From positions 1-20,881 of IMG/VR virus record IMGVR_UViG_3300017752_003105: a DNA stretch of 20,881 bases. One strand, 5' to 3'. Below, in pieces: positions 2,771-18,606 of this stretch (its first letter is position 1; each line of letters begins with the position of its first letter). A program made the translations under genes and the position numbers. Source of the stretch: a virus. The notes under the pieces were generated by a model, which saw nothing but the letters and a program-made list of their open reading frames with translations, searched no databases and was not told the origin of the DNA.

Positions 2771-2988
2771 GTTACCCATATTCGAAAACAGTTCGTCAAT
2801 TCACGGACATTCGCCCAATCCCTTCTGAGAATGGTCTCTACATACACACGAAAGACTTTCGTGGTAAGCCCGTAAAATTAAATGTGCTTGACTTTAATGG
2901 CACAGACCTCTATAATCTAATTAATGAGGTTTACAACTTGGGTAAATCTGATCAAGCGAAAGAAGTGAAGAGGGCACTGAAACTATGA
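2767..2988 (+). CDS. 73-aa protein of unknown function
   Basis: ATG 2767 overlaps the stop of the exonuclease gene (ATGA) and has a good ribosome site, GAGAGGA, just upstream. The product is small, soluble and basic. It opens MSYPYSKTVRQFTDIRPIP and ends in a charged helix (SDQAKEVKRALKL). No motif was recognised. Overlaps of 4 bases at both ends place it in the operon leading to 47 and 46, and the strong ribosome site supports translation. Confidence 0.75.
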   Translation: MSYPYSKTVRQFTDIRPIPSENGLYIHTKDFRGKPVKLNVLDFNGTDLYNLINEVYNLGKSDQAKEVKRALKL

Positions 2989-3521
2989 ATATCTTTTATC
3001 TAGACGAAGACTTTGAAACCGCTGCAAAGATGCACCTTGACAAACATGTTGTTAAGATGATTATCGAGTATGCTCAACTGATGTCAACCGCGCACCGTAT
3101 GCTTGATGGCGATGTCTACATTGACGACTCGTCTGGTCGAAAGATGAAACGTTGGCGTCACCCCAGTGATAATATGGATGCTGTTCTCTACAAAGCGTCT
3201 CATATCAATCATCCGTCAGCCATCTGGACTCGTTCTACATTCACAAACTATCTATGGTTGTATTCTCTATGGGAAGAACTTTGCAAAGAATATACATATC
3301 GCTATGGCAAGGTTCATCTCACACAGCAAAAGCTGCAAGATGTTTTGAATATGCCGCCTAGCAACATCTCCGATGGACCACTGACTAAAATGCCACAAGC
3401 GATGCCCGATGATGTGAAGATGAAAGATTCTATTGCCGCATATCGTAATTACTATCGCACTTACAAAATGGATATGGCTCGCTATACCAAACGTGACTTC
3501 CCTGACTTTATGGTAGCTTAA
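2985..3521 (+). CDS. Conserved phage protein of the MNIFYLD...DKHVVKM type
   Basis: The protein is 178 aa, and ATG 2985 overlaps the upstream TGA. It opens MNIFYLDEDFETAAKMHLDK and continues HVVKMIIEYAQLMSTAHRML, a signature I know from many phage proteins of unassigned function. Later conserved-looking segments are INHPSAIWTRSTFTNYLW and YRYGKVH, then a tail with basic and aromatic residues (YRNYYRTYKMDMARYTKRDF). The many His, Trp and basic residues would suit nucleic-acid binding. Similar proteins are sometimes loosely annotated as pyrimidine-dimer glycosylases, but I cannot align it convincingly with T4 DenV and do not assign that function. It directly precedes gene 47 with a TAATG overlap. 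Confidence 0.8.
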   Translation: MNIFYLDEDFETAAKMHLDKHVVKMIIEYAQLMSTAHRMLDGDVYIDDSSGRKMKRWRHPSDNMDAVLYKASHINHPSAIWTRSTFTNYLWLYSLWEELCKEYTYRYGKVHLTQQKLQDVLNMPPSNISDGPLTKMPQAMPDDVKMKDSIAAYRNYYRTYKMDMARYTKRDFPDFMVA

Positions 3522-16453: not shown

Positions 16454-16889
16454 GGGGATGGGCGATCCTGTTGTCACGGTCGACGAGGAACAATTTAAAG
16501 TTAAGAAGAAAGCGATTAGTCCATTCGATTTCGCCAATAGTATCAACTATACAAAAGATAATTTAATCGTTGATGACTGGTCGGAAAAACAATACAATGC
16601 ATTTATCGTGAACAAGGCACTAAGCTATGGTGCTGACACTGTCATCGCTGCTAATGAGATGAACAGTCGCCCACATATCGATAAGAAAGCACAGTATGAT
16701 TTTCTTCGCGGTATCGTGCGCAAGAAAAAGCGTTTCAACAAATGGCTGAAGGCAGAAAAAGAAGAACAACTAGAACTGGTCAAAGAGTATTACGGATACA
16801 ACAACACAAAGGCAGCTGCCGCTCTCCGTATTCTGAATCCTGATCAGATTGCAACGATAAAGAAAAAGCTATCTCGTGGTGGTCAATAG
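16446..16889 (+). CDS. 62: gp62 clamp-loader small subunit
   Basis: The protein is 147 aa from ATG 16446, which has GGAGATAGTA before it. In-frame ATG 16434 and TTG 16389 lie deep in the upstream gene. The core SPFDFANSINYTKDNLIVDD, then EKQYNAFIVNKALSYG, RPHIDKKAQYDFLRG and KKRFNKWLK, fits gp62 as found in marine T4-like phages and loosely matches T4 (FMVENALSQFP, RGKRYGKWAK). It is shorter than T4 gp62 (187 aa). It forms the fifth subunit of the clamp loader with four gp44. Position after 44 and before regA agrees with T4. Its 3' end overlaps the opposite-strand gene by 21 bases, tail to tail. Confidence 0.88.
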   Translation: MLEGMGDPVVTVDEEQFKVKKKAISPFDFANSINYTKDNLIVDDWSEKQYNAFIVNKALSYGADTVIAANEMNSRPHIDKKAQYDFLRGIVRKKKRFNKWLKAEKEEQLELVKEYYGYNNTKAAAALRILNPDQIATIKKKLSRGGQ

Positions 16890-17564
16890 TTGTCTTCCAC
16901 CTAATTCCTTGCGAACATCTACATATTTTCTATAGTAACCAAACTGTATAGCCAAGCTATCACCAGTGTATTTTGAACTACCACCACAGTTATGAAATTT
17001 TTTGTTGTTCAATAAGACTGGTGATTTTATTTTGGCATAATCAACTTCACATACCTTACTTGACTCGTCATCAGAATCATAATAATAAGTCGATCTATAC
17101 TTATCGTAATCAGGGAATAGTGGTATGTTAATATTACAAGACCGCACATAGTCTGGATCTTTGTGTATATGATATGGTCTTGTTACGTCTCTTCCATATA
17201 TAAAACAAACTTCATCGGCGTTATACCGTTCCCTTATTTCATCTATTAACTCATTCCCAATCGCTTCGAATGTCTCTGGTGAATTCATCTTATTGTAAAA
17301 GATAAAGGGTGAAGAAAGTGACTCATTATTATATGTATCCCACATTTCTTTGAGATCCCTTTTATTAGGATCTATGCCAAACTGCTTGAGGTAATCTATG
17401 TAGGGGTTGTTTTTAGTATCGATTGCTTTTTCGATTAAGGTTTGTGTGAAGTTAGACCAATATTGTTGCAGATTTTTTTCTCTCCAAGTATTGATCATAT
17501 ACTCTTGCTCTTCAACTGCAAGTAAATTCTTAACAGGTGAATAGTATTTTTCATTTCTAGCCAT
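16869..17564 (-). CDS. Lone minus-strand gene, 2OG-Fe(II) oxygenase-like
   Basis: The protein is 231 aa from ATG 17564-17562 on the minus strand, stopping at 16871-16869. The C-terminal half resembles phage 2-oxoglutarate/Fe(II) oxygenases. It has PYHIHKDPDYVRSCNINIPL with H134-x-D136, then a Tyr-rich strand (STYYYD), a turn PVLLNNKKFHNCGG with possible third ligand H191, and a final strand LAIQFGYY. A clear 2-oxoglutarate-binding arginine is not evident. The N-terminal half is helical (NTWREKNLQQYWSNFTQTL) with no recognised family. It is the only minus-strand gene in the window and is AT-rich (17 G or C in 17281-17340). No ribosome site precedes the ATG, and a late-promoter box ends 5 bases upstream of it. 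Confidence 0.75.
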   Translation of the reverse strand: MARNEKYYSPVKNLLAVEEQEYMINTWREKNLQQYWSNFTQTLIEKAIDTKNNPYIDYLKQFGIDPNKRDLKEMWDTYNNESLSSPFIFYNKMNSPETFEAIGNELIDEIRERYNADEVCFIYGRDVTRPYHIHKDPDYVRSCNINIPLFPDYDKYRSTYYYDSDDESSKVCEVDYAKIKSPVLLNNKKFHNCGGSSKYTGDSLAIQFGYYRKYVDVRKELGGRQLLTTTR

Positions 17565-17608: not shown

Positions 17609-18022
17609 ATGAGTGAAGATTTCTTCGACATTGATTATCCTGGATATGCGCCGTTAGAAATCAAACTTAAAAAGTCAGATGACTTTCTTAAGATCCGCGA
17701 GACCCTTTCTCGCATCGGTGTTGCTTCCAGAAAAGAAAAAGTTTTATACCAATCTTGTCATATTCTGCACAAGAAAGGTCGATATTTCATCACACACTTT
17801 AAAGAGTTGTTTGCACTAGATGGCAAGGATGCCGACTTCGGTGAGGGAGATATCGAACGTCGCAACACCATCGCGAAACTTCTCGCCGACTGGGAACTTC
17901 TTGAAGTTATCAGCCCAGAATTATATGAAACTAAAGCCCCATTGAGTCAAATAAAAGTCCTACCGTTCAAAGAAAAGAGTGAGTGGGAATTAATTACCAA
18001 ATATAATATTGGTAAAAAATAG
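17609..18022 (+). CDS. regA: RegA translational repressor
   Basis: The protein is 137 aa. Its core, DFLKIRETLSRIGVASRK, then VLYQSCHILHKKGRYFITHFKEL, ALDGKDADFG and RRNTIAKLLADWELLEVI, fits T4 RegA (122 aa) along nearly its full length. There is a roughly 20-residue N-terminal part with no T4 equivalent in my memory (MSEDFFDIDYPGYAPLEIKL). RegA binds AU-rich start regions of many early phage mRNAs and blocks their translation, its own included. ATG 17609 has AAGGA at 17598-17602. The leader is AT-only apart from this site (repeated ATA units at 17584-17597), a plausible autoregulatory target. Order 62-regA-43 follows T4. Confidence 0.95.
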   Translation: MSEDFFDIDYPGYAPLEIKLKKSDDFLKIRETLSRIGVASRKEKVLYQSCHILHKKGRYFITHFKELFALDGKDADFGEGDIERRNTIAKLLADWELLEVISPELYETKAPLSQIKVLPFKEKSEWELITKYNIGKK

Positions 18023-18051
18023 TTGACTTTTCAACAATAACTCCTTATATA
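18023..18051 (+). promoter_or_regulatory. Sigma70-like promoter for hsp20
   Basis: TTGACT (18023-18028), 17 bases, then TATATA (18046-18051). It begins right after the regA stop (18020-18022). The predicted start is near 18058. A 5-bp inverted repeat GTTGA-CTTT-TCAAC (18022-18035) covers the -35 and could be an operator or a small hairpin in read-through RNA. Confidence 0.7.
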
Positions 18052-18056
18052 TAGAG

Positions 18057-18079
18057 TATCGATGCCTGATGGGTCGATA
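18057..18079 (+). promoter_or_regulatory. Stem-loop at the 5' end of the hsp20 leader
   Basis: TATCGA (18057-18062) pairs with TCGATA (18074-18079). The inner bases add a T-G wobble and, past one unpaired G, two C-G pairs (CC 18065-18066 with GG 18071-18072), closing a TGAT loop. The stem begins at the predicted transcription start, so the mRNA would carry a 5'-terminal hairpin, which usually protects against decay. About 20 bases separate it from the ribosome site TAAGGAG (18098-18104). Confidence 0.5.
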
Positions 18080-18111
18080 TATTTTAACTCGCTTTTTTAA
18101 GGAGAACCAAA

Positions 18112-18576
18112 ATGGTTACGAAAACTTTCCGCGCAAGCGATCTACATGAGATCGCAAAACAACTTACCCCACACACAGTTGGATTCAATACAGTCTTTGA
18201 GAACCTACATCGCGTCTCATTGACCGAGAGTCAATATCCCCCATACAATATTGTAGATAGAGGTGATGACCAGTTTACGATTGAGATTGCAGCTGCTGGG
18301 TTTGACGAGAAAGATCTAGAGATTACACAGCTTCCTGAGACCAATGAATTGGTCATTGAAGGTAAGACCGAAGATGGAGACAAGAAGTATCTACACAAAG
18401 GTATTGCTTCTCGTAATTTTAAACGGTCTTTTGCACTACATCAAGATGTTCAAGTGACGGGTGCATTAATGGTTCAAGGTGTTCTCAACATCCACCTCGA
18501 ACGAGTAGTTCCAGAAGAACGCAAACCTCGTAAGATCGATATCGGTCTAGATGAAAAGCAGTTCTTGCAGGACTAA
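18112..18576 (+). CDS. hsp20: Small heat-shock protein (Hsp20/IbpA type)
   Basis: The protein is 154 aa. Residues about 40-140 form an alpha-crystallin domain: YPPYNIVDRGDDQFTIEIAA, AGFDEKDLEI, LVIEGKTED, KKYLHKGIASRNFKRSFAL and GVLNIHLERVVPEERKPRKI, the IbpA-like order. The N-terminus (VGFNTVFENLHRVS) matches the IbpA feature around TVGFDRLF. It is an ATP-independent holdase that keeps unfolded proteins soluble. Hsp20 genes are widespread in T4-like cyanophages and related marine phages. It has its own promoter, a structured leader and a strong ribosome site (TAAGGAG). An upstream CTCCTTA (18041-18047) is a perfect complement to that site but is present only in RNA reading through from regA. 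Confidence 0.94.
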   Translation: MVTKTFRASDLHEIAKQLTPHTVGFNTVFENLHRVSLTESQYPPYNIVDRGDDQFTIEIAAAGFDEKDLEITQLPETNELVIEGKTEDGDKKYLHKGIASRNFKRSFALHQDVQVTGALMVQGVLNIHLERVVPEERKPRKIDIGLDEKQFLQD

Positions 18577-18583
18577 TAAATAA

Positions 18584-18606
18584 GGGGGAGCAGTGGTTGT
18601 TCCCCC
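18584..18606 (+). terminator. GC-rich stem-loop after hsp20, possible weak terminator
   Basis: GGGGGA (18584-18589) and TCCCCC (18601-18606) form a 6-bp stem with an 11-base loop. ATAA (18580-18583) and TTAT (18610-18613) could extend it past a 3-base bulge. It starts 8 bases after the hsp20 stop. No U-run follows on the + strand (AACTTATAGG), so it is not a standard rho-independent terminator. It may slow transcription or protect the hsp20 mRNA 3' end. Confidence 0.35.

Follow-up and report, generated by a model that had tools for sequence, protein, structure and literature searches.

The question raised by this locus is how the hsp20 gene of a T4-like phage is controlled at the level of translation, and which part of its leader covers the ribosome site. 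The window analyzed (the whole stretch of 20,881 nucleotides) is a fragment of such a phage with the gene order sliding clamp, clamp loader, regA, hsp20, and its features are collected in Table 1. We consider it highly probable (about 0.83) that the hsp20 leader (18057-18111) acts as an RNA thermometer of the short, two-hairpin ROSE-like kind, in which the Shine-Dalgarno sequence (SD) opens on warming. Computation established the structure of this leader, its conservation, the covariation of hairpin I, the association with hsp20 and dnaK and the resemblance to proteobacterial ROSE leaders.

Table 1. Positions of the features of the hsp20 locus in the window and of the dnaK leaders in other contigs
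Feature	Position	Strand	Details and basis
regA (translational repressor)	17609..18022	+	Pfam PF01818, E 3.7e-45; PHROG 242; directly upstream of the hsp20 unit
Predicted hsp20 promoter	18023..18051	+	-35 TTGACT 18023-18028, 17 nt, TATATA 18046-18051; from sequence
CTCCTTA, upstream anti-SD of the first-pass annotation	18041..18047	+	Overlaps promoter spacer/-10
ROSE hairpin I	18057..18079	+	TATCGA-U-g-CC(UGAU)GG-G-TCGATA; pairs 18057-18062 with 18074-18079, U18063.G18073, C18065-G18072, C18066-G18071; loop 18067-18070; covariation and covariance model matches
ROSE hairpin II, presumed thermosensing SD hairpin	18088..18104	+	CUC 18088-18090 and CUU 18092-18094 with AAGGAG 18099-18104; G18091 bulged; loop UUUU; UCGCU motif, pair counts, folding
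hsp20 Shine-Dalgarno TAAGGAG	18098..18104	+	Sequence
Whole ROSE-like leader, start codon included	18056..18114	+	Model R2 58.5 bits; Rfam ROSE_3 27.9 bits
hsp20, small heat-shock protein, IbpA-like	18112..18576	+	PF00011, E 3.3e-15; PHROG 432; alignment
ROSE-like leader before virus-encoded dnaK	L096:10557-10613	-	
ROSE-like leader before virus-encoded dnaK	L145:1717-1771	+	
ROSE-like leaders before virus-encoded dnaK	L295-L374, near 2950-3003		

With respect to the promoter, the spacing of TTGACT, 17 nt and TATATA predicts from the sequence a start at approximately 18057-18058, and native hsp20 RNA would consequently lack CTCCTTA. The first-pass annotation had placed the start after CTCCTTA near 18058, and the promoter letters agree with this, but a stricter promoter pattern scan did not include 18023-18051 among its listings. 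Using 193 distinct phage hsp20 leader sequences as the comparison set, a TATAAT-, TAAATA- or TATATA-like sequence was present in 177 within 22 nt of the 5' end of the extracted sequence. The same element stands behind TATAAT-type promoters in some hsp20 leaders and behind a T4-late-like TAAATA in others, a mixture of promoter types hinting that expression timing may differ between phages. Promoter, ROSE leader and hsp20 form a unit behind varying genes (regA in the window, L002 and L051, other genes in L001 and L003), which gives the impression of a cassette that moves as a whole. Directly 3' of hsp20, a hairpin GGGGGA..TTCCCCC (18584-18606) is kept in L001, L002 and L003 with its loop and stem base altered; since it has no trailing U run, it may serve at an RNA end or in processing and not as a terminator. 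A 231-aa open reading frame (16869-17564), read from the opposite strand, separates the clamp-loader gene from regA; no Pfam or PHROG match was obtained for it.

The part of the leader conserved in relatives includes a local complement of the SD, CUCGCUU (18088-18094), which the first-pass annotation had overlooked. The block 18057-18104 is 94-96% identical to that of four relatives, with the coding sequence at 65-87%. In an alignment of 79 leaders, hairpin I carried double-sided compensatory changes at eight of its nine pairs, the number of such changes being 76 versus 25.5 in shuffles and the covariation score 0.264 versus at most 0.095 when the pairing was slid. The signal was also obtained in a sequence-only alignment (0.274 versus 0.126 in shuffles) and in dnaK and hsp20 leaders from other phages (0.316 versus 0.142), and the loops of hairpin I interchange between UUCG, GNRA and others. 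Hairpin II, CUYGCUU with AAGGAG, is near-invariant as would be expected for an SD, and because its pairs mostly do not vary its covariation is thin. CTCGCT with its bulged G was found in 80 of 80 leaders selected by protein alone (59 distinct sequences), the bulged G (G18091) being without variation in this set. Compensated forms of hairpin II were observed before hsp20 in L127, L160 and L171 (GTCGCT..AAGGAC) and in phages S-TIM5 and S-TIM54 (CCACGCTT..AAGGTGG). In four loci (L276, L078, L120 and L142) hairpin I is preceded by a further hairpin, ending in TTTGACGC or similar, which gives a three-hairpin form.

When native window RNA was folded with ViennaRNA, local pairing depended on the 3' end chosen: with one it dropped between 10 C and 37 C from 0.94 to 0.24, with another it stayed at 0.87-0.88. 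The L001 leader was predicted to misfold. These melting curves are at most suggestive and were set aside as direct evidence, since E. coli ibpA, a known thermometer used as a control, barely melts in the same calculation.

The distribution of the element was followed by motif, by protein and by covariance model, and hundreds of phages from aquatic settings were found to have it ahead of hsp20 or dnaK. CTCGCTTTTTTAAGGAG was located in 47 viral stretches, nearly all directly before hsp20 with L006 as a clear exception, and a scan for the hairpin I motif with AAGG returned at least 120, again nearly all before hsp20. Loci were also fetched by Hsp20 protein, so that selection was independent of the motif (an alignment of 17 Hsp20 proteins was too diverse for locus search), and the 80 IMG/VR loci obtained all carried CTCGCT and the hairpin before hsp20. 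Many IMG/VR records are related fragments, viral status being taken from the collection, and such counts are therefore not counts of independent events. Among 21 diverse GenBank phages, 18 had the plain motif, S-TIM5 and S-TIM54 the compensated variant, and DSL-LC02 a divergent leader. A search with the leader only matched 127 GenBank records, all from Synechococcus or Prochlorococcus phages and other cyanophages, and among the matches listed most carry a heat-shock protein annotation under the match. Model R2, which was built without the clade of the window, recognized the window leader with 58.5 bits (E 6.6e-16). C48C1 and DSL-LC02 gave only weak model matches. One further match (L182:2586-2629, 27.8 bits) lies before a gene whose product repeats a lectin-like (LamG-like) sequence; this record is filed as a gammaproteobacterial genome, may be a phage, and its gene may not be a chaperone.

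A second such leader was found before dnaK in two contigs. Following a DnaK protein search, the motif U(U/C)GCU..AGGA was present before dnaK at 79 of 80 viral loci, the remaining locus being cut by the contig end. At most of these loci a second leader stands just after dnaK, with hsp20 then following in L096 and L145. DnaK has been described in large aquatic phages (PMC12619734), a report in which no mention of a ROSE-like leader before phage dnaK was found.

With respect to the identity of the element, the best Rfam match of the window was ROSE_3 (RF02523), which aligned with 18056-18117 end to end at 27.9 bits, a score below the gathering threshold of 43 bits. Other phages scored 22-29 bits on ROSE_3, none of them over the cut-off, and hsp20 leaders of Polynucleobacter, a Burkholderiales genome and a Comamonadaceae genome scored 27-33 bits; the positive control, E. 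coli ibpA, gave 100 bits on ROSE_2. At gathering thresholds Rfam matched none of 20 loci, and in e-value mode four whole loci gave no matches although they carry the element; either the public models are drawn too narrowly, or the element was lost at the speed filters. A leader of the pattern GGATGCC-loop-GGGTCC..CTYGCT..GGAG also precedes hsp20/ibpA in alpha-, beta- and gamma-proteobacteria, and was seen before hsp20 in Acetobacter, Polynucleobacter, Sheuella and Ferrovum. The window leader has these features of the ROSE-like class: a position 5' of a small heat-shock gene (hsp20 at 18112), UCGCU (18089-18093) of the U(U/C)GCU type facing AAGGAG in the SD hairpin, imperfect pairing of that hairpin with G18091 bulged, and two hairpins, where the class has two to four, with covariation in hairpin I. 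From the sub-gathering score, the scores of the proteobacterial leaders and the Pseudomonas-type anatomy, we therefore place it in the ROSE-like class, outside ROSE_3 as curated. Other thermometer and Rfam assignments were rejected. A fourU thermometer does not fit, the conserved partner of the SD being CUYGCUU and the U run being the loop in the window and unconserved in relatives; matches to Rfam freshwater-2 (13.8 bits) and the PutA thermometer (11-18 bits) were far below threshold and probably due to chance.

The closest characterised relatives are the short ROSE-like elements of Pseudomonas ibpA, which are thermometers and in which hairpin II alone suffices for thermoregulation (PMC3669281). 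These share with the phage leader the two hairpins, a length of about 60 nt and a U(U/C)GCU paired with the SD in hairpin II, and ROSE_3, the nearest Rfam model by score and layout, has the same GAUGCC..GGGUC hairpin I and ACUCGCU..AGGAG hairpin II. Unlike both, the phage leaders lie in phage genomes behind sigma70-like or late-like phage promoters, often have UUCG or GNRA loops in hairpin I, occur also before dnaK and score below the gathering threshold, and their thermoregulation is a prediction. The E. coli ibpA element (ROSE_2, RF01832) has the same motif in its SD hairpin (CUCGCU..CAGGAG) and an IbpA-like product, but is longer with other upstream hairpins, and the window reached only 10.2 bits on ROSE_2. 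The cyanobacterial hsp17 thermometer also serves a small heat-shock gene, and many of these phages infect hosts of that kind, but it is summarised (PMC4477652) as a single hairpin which also holds the start codon.

A different mechanism had been proposed in the first-pass annotation, namely that CTCCTTA in RNA reading through from regA hides TAAGGAG, so that promoter choice sets translation. CTCCTTA (18041) is indeed the exact 7-nt complement of TAAGGAG (18098), each occurring once in the window, the hairpin at 18057-18079 between them is real, and ViennaRNA predicted that in read-through RNA the long-range pairing displaces the local hairpin, with P ~1 throughout the range 10 to 42 C. The window scan found no terminator-like site between regA and hsp20, and CTCCTTA is shared with the sister locus L002. 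The proposal fails, however, on conservation, a check which the annotation had itself suggested, as the conserved or covarying upstream complement that such a lock requires was not found: the window and L002 were the only 2 of the 193 distinct leaders to carry CTCCTTA. It is missing from L001 and L003, which have other upstream genes, and from L051, which has regA, the SD being kept in all three of these close relatives; Bellamy, in which regA is also directly upstream, lacks it too, and in L051 and Bellamy the predicted read-through RNA retains the local hairpin. Ten other leaders of the 193 have a different 7-mer complement of the SD, in several cases CCTTTTT or CTCCTTT within a run rich in T. 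When 18023-18080 was shuffled with dinucleotides preserved, CTCCTTA arose in 0.5% of cases and some perfect 7-nt complement of the SD region in 2-5%; these odds are suggestive but not strong once the many noticeable features are counted. Situated in the promoter spacer and -10 region, CTCCTTA is probably incidental and part of the promoter. Nor would melting of the long-range stem provide the heat sensor that had been envisaged, since the predicted lock stays closed even at 50 C. Because it is unconserved, the lock is rejected as a general mechanism and is very unlikely to control this gene; a lock peculiar to the lineage of the window and L002, which the folding predictions would allow, gained no support. 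The proposed RNA thermometer on hsp20 was supported in RNA from the gene's own promoter, with the local CUCGCUU and not CTCCTTA as pairing partner, and the intervening stem-loop is hairpin I of that thermometer rather than a spacer.

Two further explanations accept the local hairpins and give them another role. In one, the leader is mainly a binding site for Hsp20, with thermometry secondary or absent: E. coli IbpA represses translation via its own ROSE-bearing 5' UTR and needs R93 to do so (PMC10474464). All phage Hsp20 proteins aligned have arginine at the R93 column (R101 in the window protein), and IbpB, which is without the activity, is also without that arginine. This arginine is, however, near-invariant in these proteins anyway, and with the leader standing before dnaK too, that gene would have to be regulated in trans. 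Feedback of this kind coexists with thermometry in E. coli and is therefore not exclusive; by analogy it is compatible with the thermometer as an extra layer, and we regard it as rather unlikely to be the main function. The other explanation, in which the hairpins are a generic element for mRNA stability or ribosome presentation, or hairpin I is a palindromic DNA operator, and temperature is not sensed, would account for a hairpin at the predicted 5' end and for the stable tetraloops in many members. It is highly improbable, given that hairpin II with UCGCU and its bulged G is equally conserved and that both hairpins are tied to heat-shock genes; an operator in particular is unlikely, because the changes in the stem are compensatory and rewrite its sequence.

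In the thermometer reading, RNA from the hsp20 promoter would begin at or near hairpin I and fold into hairpins I and II, where the CUC-G-CUU strand of hairpin II, its G bulged, would pair imperfectly with the SD AAGGAG. At lower temperature hairpin II would cover the ribosome site; on warming it would open, release the SD and allow phage Hsp20 to be made. Melting and translational response of the phage leader are expected here from their occurrence in characterised ROSE-like elements.

Three phage RNA thermometers were found described, those of lambda cIII, SPbeta blyA (a fourU element) and a Caudoviricetes sigma70 gene (PMC10586365, PMC11182007). These are likewise temperature-sensing RNAs in phage gene leaders, but none is described as being of ROSE type or as controlling a chaperone, and that of lambda cIII responds to temperature in the opposite sense. 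None of the open-licence papers searched was found to report an RNA thermometer, of ROSE type or otherwise, in cyanophages or on phage hsp20 or dnaK. If the present reading is true, a new family of phage thermometers would comprise at least 193 distinct hsp20 leader sequences in addition to the dnaK leaders.

Such a family also suggests that thermometer-chaperone units are exchanged between proteobacteria and phages. It is also reasonably likely that this is a widespread phage chaperone module, by which phage-encoded Hsp20, joined in some phages by DnaK, is translated via separate ROSE-like leaders in T4-like cyanophages, pelagiphages and large freshwater phages alike, the virus thus sensing temperature without the host heat-shock regulator and perhaps, through Hsp20 feedback, misfolding as well. 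A conserved ROSE-like leader would tie phage hsp20 to temperature, which can be tested in cultured phages such as S-RIM2, P-SSM2 and Bellamy, and is relevant to the response of phage infection to warming of the water.
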